Source: Gluconacetobacter diazotrophicus PA1 5
GTDB taxonomy: Bacteria > Pseudomonadota > Alphaproteobacteria > Acetobacterales > Acetobacteraceae
NCBI RefSeq assembly: GCF_000021325.1
Contig: NC_011365.1
Coordinates: 372,001-436,000 of the forward strand
Reading direction: 5' to 3'
DNA: 64,000 nucleotides
Shown: piece by piece, positions 10,551 to 16,602 of the stretch
Layout of the letters: each line of letters starts with the position of its first letter
How positions within the stretch are numbered: position 1 is the first letter of the stretch
Made by a program: the position numbers and the translations under genes
Notes under the pieces: generated by a model
Told to the model about the DNA's origin: nothing
The model's input: only the letters and a program-made list of their open reading frames with translations
Databases searched by the model: none

Positions 10551-10675
10551 GGAAATGAAGGGCTGATTGGCCCGAACGAGGAATTTCCCCCGCCTGGTTG
10601 CCCAAGCGAGGGATGATCCTTCACAGAAAAAACCTTACGGTAATTCTGTTACCGTGGTTTCCCTACCGAATTGCC
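10551..10675 (-). ncRNA. Predicted tracrRNA of the type II-C system
   Basis: The minus strand from 10675 to 10652 reads as an anti-repeat: all but one of its 24 bases pair with the 5' part of the CRISPR repeat in its minus orientation. Downstream comes a short stem (ACGGTAA/TTACCGT) and a strong tail hairpin with arms CCCTCGCTTGG/CCAGGCGGGGG on a GCAA tetraloop (about 10586-10611). A weak GGGC/GCCC hairpin with a T-rich tail (10573-10551) gives a plausible end. The T6 at about 10631-10626 could cause partial early termination. It is divergent from cas9. The 3' end is a guess within about 20 bases. Confidence 0.75.
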
Positions 10676-10681
10676 AAGAAC

Positions 10682-10710
10682 AGATGACCTTATTGACTTG
10701 AAGAAGTCAA
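10682..10710 (-). promoter_or_regulatory. Predicted tracrRNA promoter
   Basis: On the minus strand TTGACT (10710-10705), a 17-base spacer and the weak -10 TCATCT (10687-10682). Initiation about 7 bases further falls at 10675, the first base of the anti-repeat. The -10 is poor, so the call rests on the -35, the spacing and the fit to the RNA. Confidence 0.45.
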
Positions 10711-10736: not shown

Positions 10737-13700
10737 ATGATCGACGAAAGCCTGACATTCGGGATCGACTTGGGCATCGGTTCATGCGGCTGGGCCGTAC
10801 TGCGGCGGCCGTCTGCCTTCGGAAGAAAAGGCGTGATAGAAGGAATGGGGAGTTGGTGCTTCGATGTTCCCGAAACCAGCAAGGAACGGACGCCCACCAA
10901 CCAGATTCGGCGTTCCAACCGACTGCTACGGCGGGTAATCCGCCGCCGCCGCAACCGTATGGCCGCAATCAGGCGATTACTCCACGCCGCCGGGCTGCTT
11001 CCCTCGACCGACAGCGATGCGTTGAAACGCCCTGGCCACGATCCATGGGAGTTGCGCGCGCGCGGCCTCGACAAACCGTTGAAACCCGTCGAGTTCGCGG
11101 TCGTGCTTGGCCATATCGCCAAAAGGCGGGGCTTCAAATCCGCCGCCAAGCGCAAGGCGACAAACATCAGCAGCGACGACAAGAAGATGCTGACCGCACT
11201 GGAAGCCACTCGCGAGCGGCTGGGGCGCTACCGCACGGTCGGCGAAATGTTTGCGCGTGATCCTGATTTTGCCAGCCGCCGCCGCAACCGCGAAGGCAAA
11301 TATGACCGCACTACTGCCCGTGACGACCTGGAGCATGAGGTCCACGCCCTGTTCGCCGCGCAGCGCCGGCTGGGACAGGGTTTCGCCTCGCCAGAACTGG
11401 AAGAAGCGTTCACCGCCAGTGCCTTCCACCAGCGGCCGATGCAGGACAGCGAAAGGCTGGTAGGTTTCTGCCCATTCGAAAGGACGGAGAAGCGCGCAGC
11501 GAAATTGACTCCGTCCTTTGAGCGATTCCGCCTGCTGGCCCGGCTCCTCAACCTGCGCATTACGACGCCCGATGGCGAACGCCCGTTGACCGTCGATGAA
11601 ATCGCTCTCGTTACCCGCGATCTCGGCAAGACTGCAAAGCTGTCGATCAAGCGCGTGCGGACCCTGATCGGTCTGGAGGACAATCAACGTTTTACCACGA
11701 TCAGGCCGGAGGATGAGGATCGCGATATCGTTGCCCGGACCGGTGGGGCGATGACGGGAACCGCGACCCTCCGCAAGGCTCTCGGCGAGGCGCTTTGGAC
11801 CGACATGCAAGAGAGGCCGGAGCAGCTTGACGCGATTGTCCAGGTACTCAGTTTCTTCGAGGCGAACGAAACAATAACGGAGAAATTGCGTGAGATCGGT
11901 CTGACGCTTGCGGTCCTCGACGTTTTACTGACGGCGCTGGATGCTGGCGTATTCGCGAAATTCAAGGGCGCTGCCCATATTTCGACGAAAGCGGCGCGCA
12001 ACCTGCTGCCCCATCTCGAACAAGGCCGACGCTATGACGAAGCTTGCACGATGGCCGGCTATGACCATGCTGCCTCCCGCCTTTCCCATCACGGTCAGAT
12101 CGTCGCAAAGACCCAGTTCAACGCACTGGTCACGGAAATCGGGGAAAGCATTGCCAACCCTATCGCCCGCAAAGCCCTGATCGAAGGGCTCAAGCAGATC
12201 TGGGCGATGCGTAATCACTGGGGCTTGCCCGGTTCGATCCATGTCGAACTTGCCCGCGATGTCGGCAACAGTATCGAAAAGCGACGGGAAATTGAAAAAC
12301 ATATTGAAAAAAATACCGCCCTGCGCGCGCGCGAACGTCGGGAGGTCCATGATCTTCTTGATCTGGAAGATGTGAACGGCGACACATTGCTGCGTTACCG
12401 ACTATGGAAAGAACAGGGAGGCAAATGCCTGTATACCGGCAAGGCTATCCACATTCGTCAGATAGCAGCCACCGACAACAGCGTCCAGGTGGATCATATC
12501 CTGCCTTGGTCCCGCTTCGGCGATGACAGCTTCAACAACAAGACGCTGTGTCTTGCCAGTGCCAACCAGCAAAAAAAGCGATCGACGCCCTATGAATGGC
12601 TCTCCGGACAGACTGGCGATGCGTGGAACGCTTTTGTACAGCGGATCGAGACCAACAAGGAACTGCGCGGCTTCAAGAAGCGCAATTATCTGCTGAAAAA
12701 CGCCAAAGAGGCTGAAGAGAAATTCCGCAGCCGCAATCTCAATGACACGCGCTATGCCGCACGCCTGTTCGCGGAAGCAGTGAAACTGCTTTATGCTTTT
12801 GGCGAGCGGCAGGAAAAGGGCGGTAATCGTCGCGTCTTCACCCGGCCCGGCGCTCTTACGGCGGCTTTGCGTCAGGCATGGGGGGTGGAATCACTCAAGA
12901 AACAGGATGGCAAGCGCATCAATGATGACCGCCATCACGCGCTGGATGCGCTGACAGTGGCGGCAGTTGACGAAGCCGAGATCCAGCGGCTGACCAAATC
13001 TTTTCACGAATGGGAACAGCAGGGACTGGGCCGACCACTGCGACGTGTCGAACCGCCGTGGGAAAGCTTTCGTGCGGATGTTGAGGCAACCTATCCGGAA
13101 GTATTCGTTGCCCGCCCCGAACGCCGCCGCGCGCGTGGCGAGGGCCATGCCGCGACAATCCGGCAGGTGAAAGAGCGCGAATGTACGCCCATCGTCTTTG
13201 AACGGAAGGCCGTTTCCAGCCTCAAGGAAGCCGACCTTGAACGGATTAAGGATGGCGAACGCAATGAGGCCATCGTGGAGGCTATACGCTCCTGGATCGC
13301 AACCGGCCGGCCCGCCGACGCCCCACCCCGTTCGCCACGCGGCGATATTATCACCAAGATCCGTCTGGCGACCACGATCAAGGCCGCCGTTCCCGTCCGC
13401 GGGGGCACTGCCGGTCGAGGAGAAATGGTACGGGCGGACGTGTTTAGCAAGCCCAACCGCAGGGGCAAGGACGAATGGTATCTGGTGCCCGTTTATCCAC
13501 ATCAGATCATGAATCGGAAGGCTTGGCCAAAGCCACCGATGCGGTCGATAGTTGCCAATAAGGATGAGGATGAATGGACCGAAGTCGGTCCCGAGCATCA
13601 ATTTCGCTTTAGTCTTTATCCTCGCTCCAATATAGAGATCATAAGACCGAGTGGAGAAGTGATCGAAGGATATTTCGTGGGCCTTCATCGGAACACGGGG

Positions 13701-13748
13701 GCACTAATACCAACTCCGGTCGGCCCTGACTCATATGTGATTGCCTGA
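10737..13748 (+). CDS. cas9: Cas9 nuclease, type II-C, C-terminus replaced by IS sequence
   Basis: RNA-guided DNA endonuclease of the locus. The ATG at 10737 has TGGGGAA upstream; an in-frame TTG at 10671 lies in the anti-repeat and is rejected. Catalytic residues are intact: RuvC-I FGIDLG with D11, Arg-rich bridge helix (about 50-75), RuvC-II HVELARD with E504, HNH VDHILPWSRF with H587 and NNKTLC plus ASANQQK, RuvC-III DDRHHALDAL with H733 and D737. The present frame is 1003 codons, but native sequence ends at residue 991 (...NTGALI). The last 12 residues, PTPVGPDSYVIA, come from the IS630 element. The missing 56-residue end lies at 14886-15056, so the intact gene would encode about 1047 residues. 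The lost part is in the PAM-interacting C-terminal domain, so target cleavage is probably lost or changed. Confidence 0.93.
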   Translation: MIDESLTFGIDLGIGSCGWAVLRRPSAFGRKGVIEGMGSWCFDVPETSKERTPTNQIRRSNRLLRRVIRRRRNRMAAIRRLLHAAGLLPSTDSDALKRPGHDPWELRARGLDKPLKPVEFAVVLGHIAKRRGFKSAAKRKATNISSDDKKMLTALEATRERLGRYRTVGEMFARDPDFASRRRNREGKYDRTTARDDLEHEVHALFAAQRRLGQGFASPELEEAFTASAFHQRPMQDSERLVGFCPFERTEKRAAKLTPSFERFRLLARLLNLRITTPDGERPLTVDEIALVTRDLGKTAKLSIKRVRTLIGLEDNQRFTTIRPEDEDRDIVARTGGAMTGTATLRKALGEALWTDMQERPEQLDAIVQVLSFFEANETITEKLREIGLTLAVLDVLLTALDAGVFAKFKGAAHISTKAARNLLPHLEQGRRYDEACTMAGYDHAASRLSHHGQIVAKTQFNALVTEIGESIANPIARKALIEGLKQIWAMRNHWGLPGSIHVELARDVGNSIEKRREIEKHIEKNTALRARERREVHDLLDLEDVNGDTLLRYRLWKEQGGKCLYTGKAIHIRQIAATDNSVQVDHILPWSRFGDDSFNNKTLCLASANQQKKRSTPYEWLSGQTGDAWNAFVQRIETNKELRGFKKRNYLLKNAKEAEEKFRSRNLNDTRYAARLFAEAVKLLYAFGERQEKGGNRRVFTRPGALTAALRQAWGVESLKKQDGKRINDDRHHALDALTVAAVDEAEIQRLTKSFHEWEQQGLGRPLRRVEPPWESFRADVEATYPEVFVARPERRRARGEGHAATIRQVKERECTPIVFERKAVSSLKEADLERIKDGERNEAIVEAIRSWIATGRPADAPPRSPRGDIITKIRLATTIKAAVPVRGGTAGRGEMVRADVFSKPNRRGKDEWYLVPVYPHQIMNRKAWPKPPMRSIVANKDEDEWTEVGPEHQFRFSLYPRSNIEIIRPSGEVIEGYFVGLHRNTGALIPTPVGPDSYVIA

Positions 13749-14883
13749 CGGTATCGTTCTGGAACGAGCTGTGATTCACAGGATGCCGAACCGGGCGGGA
13801 GGCATCCGAATGGGCGGGGCGTTAGCGTTGCGTGAGGATTATGATGCGGCGGGACTGCGTGCTCTGGCGCGGACAACGAGGCATGCGGGCCAGGCGCGTC
13901 GGCTTCTGGCGCTGGCGGCGATCTACGATGGTGCGTCACGCGGAGACGCGGCACGACTGGCTGGGACGGATCGGCAGATTGTGCGGGACTGGGTGGTGCG
14001 TTTCAACGCCGAGGGCCCGGATGGCGTGCGGGATCATCATGGGGGCGGTGTCGTTCCCCGCCTGACACCAGCCATGTTGGAAGCGCTGATGCGCCGGATC
14101 GAGGACGGCCCGATCGCTGCCGTGCATGGGGTGGTGCGCTGGCGGCAGGCTGATCTGGGGCAATGGCTTTATGAGGAATTCGGCGTCTCTCTTTCGCGCA
14201 GCCGGCTGAGCGCCGTTATCCGGGGCCTCGACTTCCGCCTTCTGACGGGACGCCCCCGGCACCATGCCCAGGATCCCGAGGCCCAGGACGTTTTTAAAAA
14301 AGCTTCCCCGACGTCATGGCCGGGATCCGGGCCCGGCATCCCGGCAAGGCCATCGAACTCTGGTGGGGCGACGAGGCGAGGGTCGGCCAGAAAACGAAGC
14401 TGACGCGCCGCTGGGCCAGACGCGGCACCCGTCCACGCGCGCCTGCCGATCAGCGCACACGTTCGGCCTGGATCTTCGGAGCGATCTGTCCGGCGCTAGG
14501 CAAGGGAGCGGCCCTCGTCCTGCCCTGGTGCAACCTCCACGCCATGAACCGGCATCTCGACGAGATCTCGCAGGCCGTAGCGCCGGGCGCTCACGCTATC
14601 CTCATCGTCGATCAGGCAGCGTGGCATACCAGCCCGAAACTCGATATCCCCGCCAACATCACCATCCTGCCGCTCCCGCCACGCTCGCCCGAACTCAATC
14701 CGGTGGAAAACGTCTGGCAGTTCATGCGCAATACCTGGCTGTCGAACCGGATCTTCCGCACCTACGACGACATCGTCGATATCTGCTGCCACGCCTGGAA
14801 CCAGCTCGTCGACCAGCCCTGGCGCATCATGTCCCTCGGGCTACGACAATGGGCACATGGGTTTTAACAAACAGGAGTTGGTA
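13708..14883 (+). mobile_element. IS630-family insertion sequence inside cas9
   Basis: The ends are inverted repeats: TACCAACTCC at 13708-13717 and GGAGTTGGTA at 14874-14883, with weaker symmetry continuing inward for about 30 bases. Total length is 1176 bp, in the usual range for IS630. TA dinucleotides at both ends fit the TA target preference of the IS630/Tc1/mariner group. Deleting exactly 1176 bp rejoins cas9 in frame (GALI-TISAHND). If the flanking TA copies are counted as a target duplication, 2 bases remain ambiguous because the right side reads TATA. It is oriented with the cas genes. Confidence 0.88.
13810..14867 (+). CDS. IS630-family transposase, two frames joined by -1 frameshift
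   Basis: Cut-and-paste DDE transposase of the element. Frame one (ATG 13810, GGGAGGC ribosome binding site; stop 14403) encodes the helix-turn-helix region, from MGGALALREDYDAAG. Frame two, one base back, encodes the catalytic part. The frames meet at a T5-A6-G slippery run (14291-14302); slipping back one base after AAA-AAA gives ...DVFKKSFPDVMAG, the normal family sequence. The fused product would be about 352 residues with the DDE triad in WWGDEARVGQ, LIVDQAAWH and SPELNPVENVW. The element therefore looks complete rather than decayed, assuming programmed frameshifting or transcriptional slippage. Confidence 0.85.
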
Positions 14884-14885
14884 TA

Positions 14886-15056
14886 ACAATATCAGCACAT
14901 AATGATCCCAAGTCGATACATTCGGGAATTGGCACAAAAACCTTGCTGGCCATAAGTAAGTATCAAGTGGACCGCTTTGGTAGAAAATCCCCTGTCCGCA
15001 AAGAGGTGCGCACATGGCATGGCGAGGCGTGCATATCTCCCACCCCTCCCGGTTGA
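14886..15056 (+). pseudogene. cas9: Severed C-terminal end of Cas9
   Basis: Immediately after the IS, one frame reads TISAHNDPKS, then GIGTKTLLAISKYQVDRFGRK and on to TPPG followed by TGA at 15054-15056: 56 residues. The GIGxKT-x6-KYQxDxxG pattern is the conserved C-terminal end of type II-C Cas9; N. meningitidis Cas9 ends with GIGVKT...KYQIDELGK. The frame has no start codon of its own at the right place and joins in frame with residue 991 of the upstream part. It overlaps the cas1 start by 43 bases, so the original cas9-cas1 junction was translationally coupled. Not expected to be translated now. Confidence 0.92.
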
Positions 15057-15907
15057 CGCATCGGAATCGGCAGCTCGTTGTTGCTCAGGATGGTGGCGAG
15101 GTATCATTGGCGGTGGAGGACATCGCGTGCCTTATCCTCGATACGCGACAAGTGAGCATCACCGGGTCTCTTCTCTCTGCGCTTGCAGAAAATGGCGTTG
15201 CCATGATCGTGCCCGATGCCAGGCATCATCCTGCCGGTATCCTGCTGCCTTTTCACCAGCATCATGCCCAGGCGCACATAGCACATGCCCAGATCTCGAT
15301 CAGCCAACCATTGAAGAAGCGCCTGTGGCAGACATTGGTCGTCGCCAAGATACGTAATCAGGCTGCACTACTGGACCAACTCGGCCGGCCGCAAGGACAA
15401 ACGATTGCAGCAATGGCTGGACGGGTCGCTTCCGGCGATCCGGGCAATGTGGAAGCACAGGCGGCCCGAGCTTACTGGGCGAGCCTGTTTTCGGATTTTA
15501 CACGCGCAAACGAGAATGATCGTCGTAATGCGTTGCTTAACTATGGTTATGCGATCATGCGAGCCGCGATTGCACGCGCATGCGTGGCGCTGGGATTGCT
15601 CCCAGCTTTCGGGGTACATCACGCATCGAAAACCAATGCGTTCAATCTCGTCGACGATCTGATCGAGCCGTTCCGCCCCTTTGTGGACCGCATGGCGCAT
15701 GACCGGGCTTTGGAACATGTAGGGGACACGCTGTCTATCGAGGATCGCCGTCAAATGTCGACGATCCTCAATGACAATGCGGCCATCGGTCGCGAGCGAA
15801 TGACCGTCCTGGCCGCAACCGAAGCGGTAGCCATGTCCGTGGTGCGCGCCATCGAGCATGGCAGTGCCGCGCTTCTCTCGACTCCAACTCTGAAAGCCCG
15901 GGATTGA
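15014..15907 (+). CDS. cas1: Cas1 integrase, type II
   Basis: Cas1 with Cas2 integrates new spacers at the leader-end repeat. The 297-residue protein has the type II pattern, beginning MAWRGVHISHPSRL. The three metal-binding residues are in place: E147 (VEAQAARAYW), H203 (GVHHASKTN) and E218 (LIEPFRP), at nearly the same positions as in S. pyogenes Cas1. Length is normal for the family. The start lies inside the severed cas9 tail, so since the IS insertion its translation depends on ribosomes entering at its own start or arriving from the IS transcript. No csn2 or cas4 is present, which defines subtype II-C. Confidence 0.96.
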   Translation: MAWRGVHISHPSRLTHRNRQLVVAQDGGEVSLAVEDIACLILDTRQVSITGSLLSALAENGVAMIVPDARHHPAGILLPFHQHHAQAHIAHAQISISQPLKKRLWQTLVVAKIRNQAALLDQLGRPQGQTIAAMAGRVASGDPGNVEAQAARAYWASLFSDFTRANENDRRNALLNYGYAIMRAAIARACVALGLLPAFGVHHASKTNAFNLVDDLIEPFRPFVDRMAHDRALEHVGDTLSIEDRRQMSTILNDNAAIGRERMTVLAATEAVAMSVVRAIEHGSAALLSTPTLKARD

Positions 15908-15916
15908 CGGTGCGCG

Positions 15917-16246
15917 ATGAAAGCCGAGGACATCCGGTTCATGTGGCTTCTCGTATTTTTCGACCTTCCGGTTCGCACCAAAGAGCAGCGACGACGCGCC
16001 AGTCGCTTTCGCCATTTCCTCAAGGATGACGGCTTCTTGATGTTGCAATTTTCGGTTTACGCACGCATCTGCCGAGGACAGGACGCTGTGGAAAAGCATG
16101 TTCGGCGGGTGCGGTCGAATCTTCCAAAGGAAGGTAGCGTTCGGACACTACAAATCACGGACAGGCAATACGGACGGATGGAATTGATGCTGGGCCTTGC
16201 GCCAAAAACCGAGCGAATCGGACCTTCTCAGATGGTGCTGTTGTGA
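15917..16246 (+). CDS. cas2: Cas2 endoribonuclease-fold adaptation protein
   Basis: Structural partner of Cas1 in spacer integration; two Cas2 bridge two Cas1 dimers. The 109-residue protein has the ferredoxin-like fold pattern with FFDLPVRTKEQRR near residue 14, where the Asp after FF is the conserved residue. It starts at ATG 15917, nine bases after the cas1 stop, and ends inside a strong inverted repeat (16241-16276). Intact by length and motif. Confidence 0.95.
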   Translation: MKAEDIRFMWLLVFFDLPVRTKEQRRRASRFRHFLKDDGFLMLQFSVYARICRGQDAVEKHVRRVRSNLPKEGSVRTLQITDRQYGRMELMLGLAPKTERIGPSQMVLL

Positions 16247-16302: not shown

Positions 16303-16602
16303 AGCCTACCATCGGCAAATCGGTAGGGAAACCACGGCTCAGCCGGCTGGGCATTGCCCTACGAGAGGAGCCTACCATCGGCAAATCGGTAGGGAAACCA
16401 CGGCAGGGGAGCGCGTCACCTTCGACAAGGGCCTAGCCTACCATCGGCAAATCGGTAGGGAAACCACGGCCCTCGTTGCTCGCGCGCGGGTGCAGGGCTG
16501 AGCCTACCATCGGCAAATCGGTAGGGAAACCACGGCTCCGCACGTTCACGCGTACCAGCATCGCGGAGCCTACCATCGGCAAATCGGTAGGGAAACCACG
16601 GC
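16303..16602 (-). CRISPR. CRISPR array, 5 identical 36-bp repeats and 4 spacers of 30 bp
   Basis: Repeats are at 16303-16338, 16369-16404, 16435-16470, 16501-16536 and 16567-16602, all identical; the plus strand begins AGCCTACCATCGGC and ends GGGAAACCACGGC. Each of the four spacers is 30 bp, as usual for type II-C. I assign the minus strand as sense for two reasons. The minus-strand repeat starts GCCGTGG, and its 5' part pairs with the anti-repeat upstream of cas9. It also ends TGGTAGGCT, an extended -10-like motif at the same place as TGCTACAAT in Neisseria repeats. Partial palindrome CCTACC/GGTAGG. No degenerate terminal repeat is seen. Confidence 0.97.

Follow-up and report, generated by a model that had tools for sequence, protein, structure and literature searches.

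An IS630-type insertion within codon 991 of a type II-C cas9 in Gluconacetobacter diazotrophicus

When an insertion sequence (IS) comes to lie within the cas9 gene of a clustered regularly interspaced short palindromic repeats (CRISPR) system, the question is whether the nuclease has lost its function, how recently, and whether by chance or by selection. The question is raised by a type II-C locus of Gluconacetobacter diazotrophicus, a nitrogen-fixing bacterium of sugarcane, found in a 64,000-nucleotide stretch of contig NC_011365.1 (positions 372,001 to 436,000; hereafter the window, to which all plain coordinates refer), where the original prediction held that an IS630 element had cut the C-terminal 56 residues off the Cas9. 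Our analysis upholds this: the element sits inside the cas9 frame and the missing tail is whole in a sister genome. We consider it highly probable that the window carries a natural, recent loss-of-function allele of type II-C cas9.

From its ATG at 10737 the cas9 frame encodes native sequence as far as residue 990, followed by I-PTPVGPDSYVIA and a stop codon ending at 13748; the insertion falls within codon 991, where the first foreign residue, I, replaces T. The frame had been predicted to enter the element after residue 991, which is one residue too many, since 990 native residues remain and residue 991 is already foreign; the predicted loss of 56 residues stands, and the predicted element length of 1176 bp is exact. 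A TTG at 10671, where our TIGR01865 scan of the truncated gene began, is an unlikely start because it lies inside the anti-repeat of a putative trans-activating CRISPR RNA (tracrRNA). TIGR01865, scoring 608 bits with the truncated protein and 618 bits with the intact one, identifies a Cas9 of the Csn1 family, and the RuvC and HNH motifs, which we looked for, are in place in the truncated form. Beyond the element, the severed frame (14886-15056, stop codon 15057-15059) encodes TISAHNDPKSIHSGIGTKTLLAISKYQVDRFGRKSPVRKEVRTWHGEACISPTPPG and, as expected, overlaps cas1. With an IS inside a cas frame, a target duplication around it and the frame brought to an end, this has the structure of an IS-inactivated cas gene, and its predicted product is a broken type II-C member whose C-terminal domain for interaction with the protospacer adjacent motif (PAM) lacks its last 56 residues.

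An IS-free allele was looked for in sister strains and was found in one genome (G004; contig of 3,944,163 bp), to be compared with the window's own (G000; contig 1 of 3,887,492 bp, with a further contig of 27,455 bp). The 41-nt joined flanks of the insertion occur exactly in the sister genome, which shows the predicted empty site, GGGGCACTAACAATATC, with one TAA. Its Cas9 is continuous over 1046 residues, begins at the same ATG and ends with the 56 severed residues, and residues 1-990 are identical between the two proteins. The genomes do not differ at any of the 2971 bp from the cas9 ATG to the left TAA, nor at any of the 1419 bp from the right TAA through the tail, cas1, cas2 and the leader, as expected if the truncation is recent and the rest of the locus unspoiled. 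Excision of the IS from the sister genome is unlikely, the site being exact and holding a single TAA. A match to this cas9 was found in two of the 14 genomes of the genus (the window's own included), namely these two.

The severed frame was predicted to be the C-terminal segment of a II-C Cas9, and alignment agrees: over its C-terminal 133 residues, the intact protein can be aligned with residues 959-1070 of Nme1Cas9 (E = 3e-16). The PAM-contact residues of Nme1Cas9 are given as Q981, H1024, T1027 and N1029 in PMC9433092. Counted along the alignment, H1024 and T1027 correspond to H and T here, and Q981 and N1029 to A and A. The cut comes after the counterpart of Nme1 residue 1030 and so spares all four positions; it removes what immediately follows them, together with the closing GIGTKT...KYQVD...RTWHG segment.

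We fetched 30 related cas9 loci and compared 23, leaving out seven more distant ones (L057-L063). The C-terminal segment is carried by 18 of the 23, several of which are not independent because they are near-identical Bombella-type copies; among the other five, L042 is cut by a contig end within the segment, L045 has a different tail, and L048, L052 and L055 are without coverage. The foreign tail is absent from all 20 readable loci of the 23, so that relatives naturally ending with it, which would have spoken for another reading, were sought without result. We rejected a naturally short Cas9 on these two counts. Some Bombella-like relatives (L029; L050 = G281:C3:390257-393228) have cas9 as an open frame of 805 codons or in two pieces; these two loci and L045 are possibly other broken Cas9 genes in the family, or sequencing errors. 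AlphaFold2 predictions for the truncated protein and the intact Bombella protein L028, from two-row alignments, had mean predicted local distance difference test scores of 35.5 and 34.4 and were not used.

The element, whose ends read TACCAACTCC...GGAGTTGGTA, has two transposase frames; the second scores 155 bits against NF033545, above the cut-off of 100 bits, and so belongs to the IS630-family transposases, and the first falls below it. A T5A6 run at 14291-14301 lies near the overlap of the two frames. IS630-family elements duplicate a 2-bp TA target. The duplication here is 3 bp, for which reason we call the element IS630-type; a literature search for IS630 elements with a TNA duplication found no paper. 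There are 15 full-length copies in the window genome, 14 at 99.9-100% identity and one at 96.7%, with one further copy in two pieces, and six full copies in the sister genome, together with 11 partial pieces at 96-100% identity. Equal 3-bp flanks, nearly always TNA, border 19 of the 21 full copies over both genomes: 14 of 15 in the window genome (TNA) and five of six in the sister (four TNA, one TTC). Because the window genome holds 15 full copies and the joined flanks are exact in the sister, the insertion in cas9 is not a chance finding.

We propose that an IS630-type element inserted in codon 991 with duplication of TAA, and that the frame now stops after 13 foreign codons. A 1003-residue Cas9 would then be produced whose PAM-interacting domain is missing its final part and ends just past the PAM-contact positions. 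Lacking this part, the protein would probably be unstable, fold poorly or be unable to hold target DNA, and II-C interference would be off. Type II spacer uptake with the correct PAM needs Cas9, as is known for type II-A, on which PMC10359306 lists references, and such Cas9-dependent uptake probably stops too, which would leave the array frozen. A type I-C system with 59 spacers remains in the genome, so the loss of the II-C system would be tolerable. A recent natural event is, on the sequence evidence, most likely what cost this Cas9 its function, and we favour chance through IS activity over selection via tolerance of foreign DNA, the insertion probably being a by-product of that activity. 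Several observations weigh on the other side. The four PAM-contact positions survive, so some binding is possible, and the loss of interference is something we infer from the sequence. Among the relatives, L045 is without the canonical tail and L056 ends early within it, before RTWHG; both structure predictions were uninformative. The sister genome also holds the element, in the full and partial copies counted above, so that the copy numbers do not establish a burst limited to the lineage of the window.

Table 1. Features of the type II-C locus and of the inserted element, in window coordinates.
Feature	Coordinates	Strand	Evidence or remark
Truncated cas9, 1003 aa (990 native + 13 IS-encoded residues)	10737..13748	+	TIGR01865, 608 bits
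Severed last 56 cas9 codons (TISAHNDPK...ISPTPPG) and stop	14886..15059	+	Aligns with Nme1Cas9 C-terminus; in frame in G004
IS630-type insertion element, 1176 bp	13708..14883	+	One of 15 full copies in G000
Target duplication, left copy, TAA (3 bp)	13705..13707	.	Single TAA at G004 empty site
Target duplication, right copy, TAA	14884..14886	.	Sequence
Transposase, first frame (helix-turn-helix part), mechanically listed	13741..14403	+	NF033545, 81 bits; Pfam HTH_33, HTH_32, HTH_29
Second transposase frame (DDE part), offset backwards by one frame from the first	14316..14867	+	NF033545, 155 bits; PF13358, 91 bits
Anti-repeat of putative tracrRNA, divergent from cas9	10651..10683	-	7 mismatches to CRISPR repeat over 33 nt
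cas1 (type II)	15014..15907	+	TIGR03639, 295 bits
cas2	15917..16246	+	TIGR01573, 80.5 bits
CRISPR array, 5 identical repeats, 4 spacers (CRISPR RNA strand inferred as -)	16304..16602	-	Sequence

The rest of the locus is that of a II-C system, with an operon of cas9, cas1 and cas2 only, a type II Cas1, and neither csn2 nor cas4 beside it. The gap between cas2 and the array is 57 bp. The II-C arrays of the two genomes have the repeat and both flanks in common and wholly different spacers, the sister array holding ten (L033, 7484-8178). The putative tracrRNA strand, 10690-10560, folds better than its shuffles (z = -3.9; 1/200 shuffles as good) and has no Rfam match at E ≤ 0.1. The five neighbouring open reading frames (ORFs) that we scanned are S30EA, DUF1150, HSP20, a peptide deformylase and a formyl transferase.

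What the system had been recording can be approached through its spacers, for which three II-C protospacers were found: those of sister spacers 3 and 7 and of window spacer 3. Sister spacer 3 has its protospacer in a prophage of the window genome, with one of 30 positions mismatched, and window spacer 3 matches the same prophage with five mismatches of 30, at positions 6, 7, 17, 28 and 29 from the PAM side. Sister spacer 7 matches a third genome of the genus, G008, without mismatch over 30 positions (L149:7943-7972, G008:C3, flank TGCCGCAAGT). With the CRISPR RNA taken on the minus strand, because the anti-repeat suggests this, the 3' flanks are CCGGGCAACC, TGCCGCAAGT and TACGGCAATA, all of them N4GCAA; in 200,000 draws, three random flanks shared four identical neighbouring positions within ten in 0.02% of cases. 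According to PMC9433092, Cas9 proteins that carry a His as residue 1024 favour A or G as the fifth PAM base, and the G at position 5 of N4GCAA agrees with this preference. N4GCAA is therefore a candidate PAM, and the three protospacers, sharing it and its fitting G, indicate that the II-C system took spacers from phages in G. diazotrophicus. For an Acetobacteraceae Cas9, this is a PAM that can be tested.

The match of window spacer 3 lies outside its controls: none of 400 shuffles and none of 1000 random 30-mers reached five mismatches, and two of the 1000 reached six. Window spacer 2 has seven mismatches at G000:C1:2746990, without GCAA, and is only a hint because 12 of 1000 random 30-mers equal or better it; the best sites of spacers 1 and 4 have 10 and 11 mismatches. 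By BLAST against the two genomes, beyond the arrays and the anti-repeat, the window spacers gave nothing better than E 0.03 (24 bases, 89%); this search missed the five-mismatch site, which came to light when the prophage region was scanned by mismatch count. Across 397 Acetobacteraceae genomes at E ≤ 5e-4, the window spacers had matches in 26, and among the matches listed all overlap repeats; the sister array had two non-repeat matches in the same 397, in G000 and G008. Phage records held no match for either II-C array, and the only match in plasmids was to a Tistrella array. Four 20-mers, one from each window spacer, had no exact counterpart in IMG/VR. Sister spacers 3 and 7 were scanned there in addition: spacer 7 had no match and spacer 3 had five loci, one of them (L160) with 1/30 mismatched and the other four with 6-9/31. 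L160 and the prophage agree at 100% identity along 11,357 bp; a dense tandem repeat array (L160:1634-2451) lies about 400 bp from the spacer 3 protospacer.

The prophage extends over approximately G000:C1:2698992-2752229 (53,238 bp), bounded on one side by a repeat of the tRNA-Glu end and on the other by the tRNA-Glu gene (L154, L155, L112, L113). Ten of its ORFs were scanned against PHROGs, yielding an integrase, a repressor-like regulator, a helicase, a primase, two terminase subunits and a portal protein; three of the ten are without a named function. A search of the sister genome with 8,001 bp of the prophage gave five matches of up to 272 bp, two of them being spacers, and at the same tRNA-Glu there another sequence abuts. 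Two small stretches of the sister genome (L167, L168) have 27-33-nt prophage matches. Four sister spacers match the prophage with at most one mismatch, one of the ten II-C spacers (GCAA flank) and three of the 29 I-C spacers.

These I-C spacers belong to a second system. Both genomes have a second cas1, which in the window genome stands within a type I-C set (Cas3, Cas5d, Csd1, Cas7, Cas4 and Cas1 by Pfam), and the 9999-bp stretch holding the I-C cas genes differs at 15 positions between them. Their arrays (L165, L166) hold 59 spacers in the window genome and 29 in the sister, with one in common, the last. The PAM of type I-C systems is TTC. The three sister I-C spacers match without mismatch and have 5' flanks ending TTC, TTC and TGC; further sister matches have three mismatches (TTC) and six (TTC), and a spacer present in duplicate matches with eight (TTC). 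In the window genome, one of the 59 matches perfectly (spacer 21, flank AGT) and three match with seven mismatches (TTG, CTC, TGC); among 600 random 34-mers one reached eight mismatches against the prophage and none fewer. Because the perfect spacer has an AGT flank and the others seven mismatches, the I-C system of the window genome may be functional and merely fail to recognise the resident prophage. A different insertion of about 1.3 kb with 26-nt inverted ends lies in the window genome's I-C array, between repeats 49 and 50 (L165:17529-18846).

The prophage bears on why the insertion persisted. It could have been selected as an off-switch that let the strain keep foreign DNA, the 53-kb prophage being what it carries; we think this unlikely. 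It would account for a prophage matched almost perfectly by four spacers of the Cas9-intact genome, including one with a GCAA flank and two with a 5' TTC, and found there, where sought, as five short matches with a different tRNA-Glu junction. The hit of window spacer 3, with its GCAA flank and beyond all shuffled and random controls, fits as well, and IS10 in Erwinia, an off-switch accompanied by a plasmid, is a precedent according to PMC10359306. Yet the window's own II-C spacers match the prophage poorly, the best having five mismatches (two of them at positions 6-7) and the others 7, 10 and 11, so that a working Cas9 might have tolerated it anyway; the perfect I-C spacer 21 of the window genome is flanked by AGT; and the comparison covers a single strain pair and, for the prophage in the sister, 8,001 of its 53,238 bp. 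For entry of the prophage as a result of Cas9 loss, the case is no more than suggestive. We are equally doubtful that the genomes form a before-and-after pair, in which Cas9 reading N4GCAA would guard one lineage from a temperate phage and, in the other, an IS off-switch and a I-C system facing the wrong PAM would leave the prophage resident. Self-targeting as a driver of Cas9 loss is unsupported by the present four spacers, unless spacers were lost. The locus nevertheless lends itself to testing, as a CRISPR system that was lost in a strain whose prophage is matched by spacers of a sister lineage.

It is more doubtful still, and in our view improbable, that the truncated Cas9 was kept as a functional protein, binding guide RNA as a repressor or guide store or reading a changed PAM. 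It would be allowed by the RuvC and HNH motifs and by the PAM-contact positions, all four of which precede the cut, and cas1, cas2 and the repeats are unspoiled; but absence of decay says little, because the insertion looks recent, and 18 of the 23 relatives have kept the segment that is lost here. Loss of function through a recent insertion is thus the reading that we carry forward.

How far the comparison can be trusted depends on what the two genomes are. We take G000 to be the JGI and G004 the RioGene chromosome sequence of G. diazotrophicus PAl 5. According to PMC3035290, both came from ATCC 49037; the RioGene paper (PMC2765452) gives an Embrapa culture as the source of its DNA. As reported in PMC3035290, the two assemblies disagree, an optical map agreed far better with that of JGI, and whether error or divergence was responsible was left undecided in 2010. 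CRISPR is mentioned neither in the main text of PMC2765452 (term search) nor in the portion of PMC3035290 covered; the main text of PMC10783055 mentions neither CRISPR nor Cas9, and a literature search for G. diazotrophicus with a type II-C Cas9 found no paper. The II-C arrays (4 vs 10 spacers) share no spacer, and the substitutions between the genomes within the window are clustered, reaching at most 12 per kb in some kilobases beyond the array and being absent from many others. Random sequencing error is an unlikely source of all the differences, since substitutions cluster by kilobase. Most likely the two genomes, published as one strain, are distinct lineages rather than two assemblies of one, because the arrays of two systems are almost wholly different, the substitutions are clustered, and the prophage, partly sought, was not found in the sister; the same three differences are hard to explain by assembly errors. 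Spacer content thus bears on the 2010 question of assembly error against divergence, and studies on the stock sequenced by JGI may concern a strain without a working Cas9.

A misjoin between IS copies that placed the element in cas9 in the JGI assembly, for which the 15 full, mostly near-identical copies and the disagreement of the two assemblies could be cited, is very improbable, as such a join explains neither the equal 3-bp duplications nor the presence of the two cas9 parts beside a single copy, the flanks are collinear with the sister genome on both sides, and PMC3035290 places the JGI assembly closer to the optical map than the other.

The IS630-type element resembles its family in its DDE_3 transposase, recognised by NF033545 over the second frame, and departs from it in its 3-bp TNA rather than 2-bp TA duplication and its two transposase frames. 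Loss of CRISPR defence through IS insertion is already known in bacteria, and the present case is ordinary in kind, because Sheng et al. (2023, Nat Commun, PMC10359306) documented 163 natural insertions into cas genes, in 57 genera and from 20 IS families. Like the cases described there, it has an IS inside a cas gene, a target duplication and a broken frame; unlike them, it has its cut in the last ~5% of cas9, a twin genome lacks the insertion, and the broken strain carries a prophage that spacers of this twin match. The main text of PMC10359306 names neither Gluconacetobacter nor IS630 (term search), and its supplements, which list cases, may include this insertion.

Over the whole protein, the best solved relative is Nme1Cas9 of Neisseria meningitidis, also type II-C, reported as structure 6JDV in PMC9433092. 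The two share an alignable C-terminus, the His of H1024 and, at (candidate) PAM position 5, a G. The G. diazotrophicus Cas9 differs in having A at the positions of Q981 and N1029 and N4GCAA in place of N4GATT, and the window allele in being without its last 56 residues. Entries 6JDQ and 8JA0 we take to be the same protein, Nme1Cas9. The two G. diazotrophicus alleles, with the same 990 residues and with or without the last 56, make a clean pair with which to probe the end of the II-C PAM-interacting domain.

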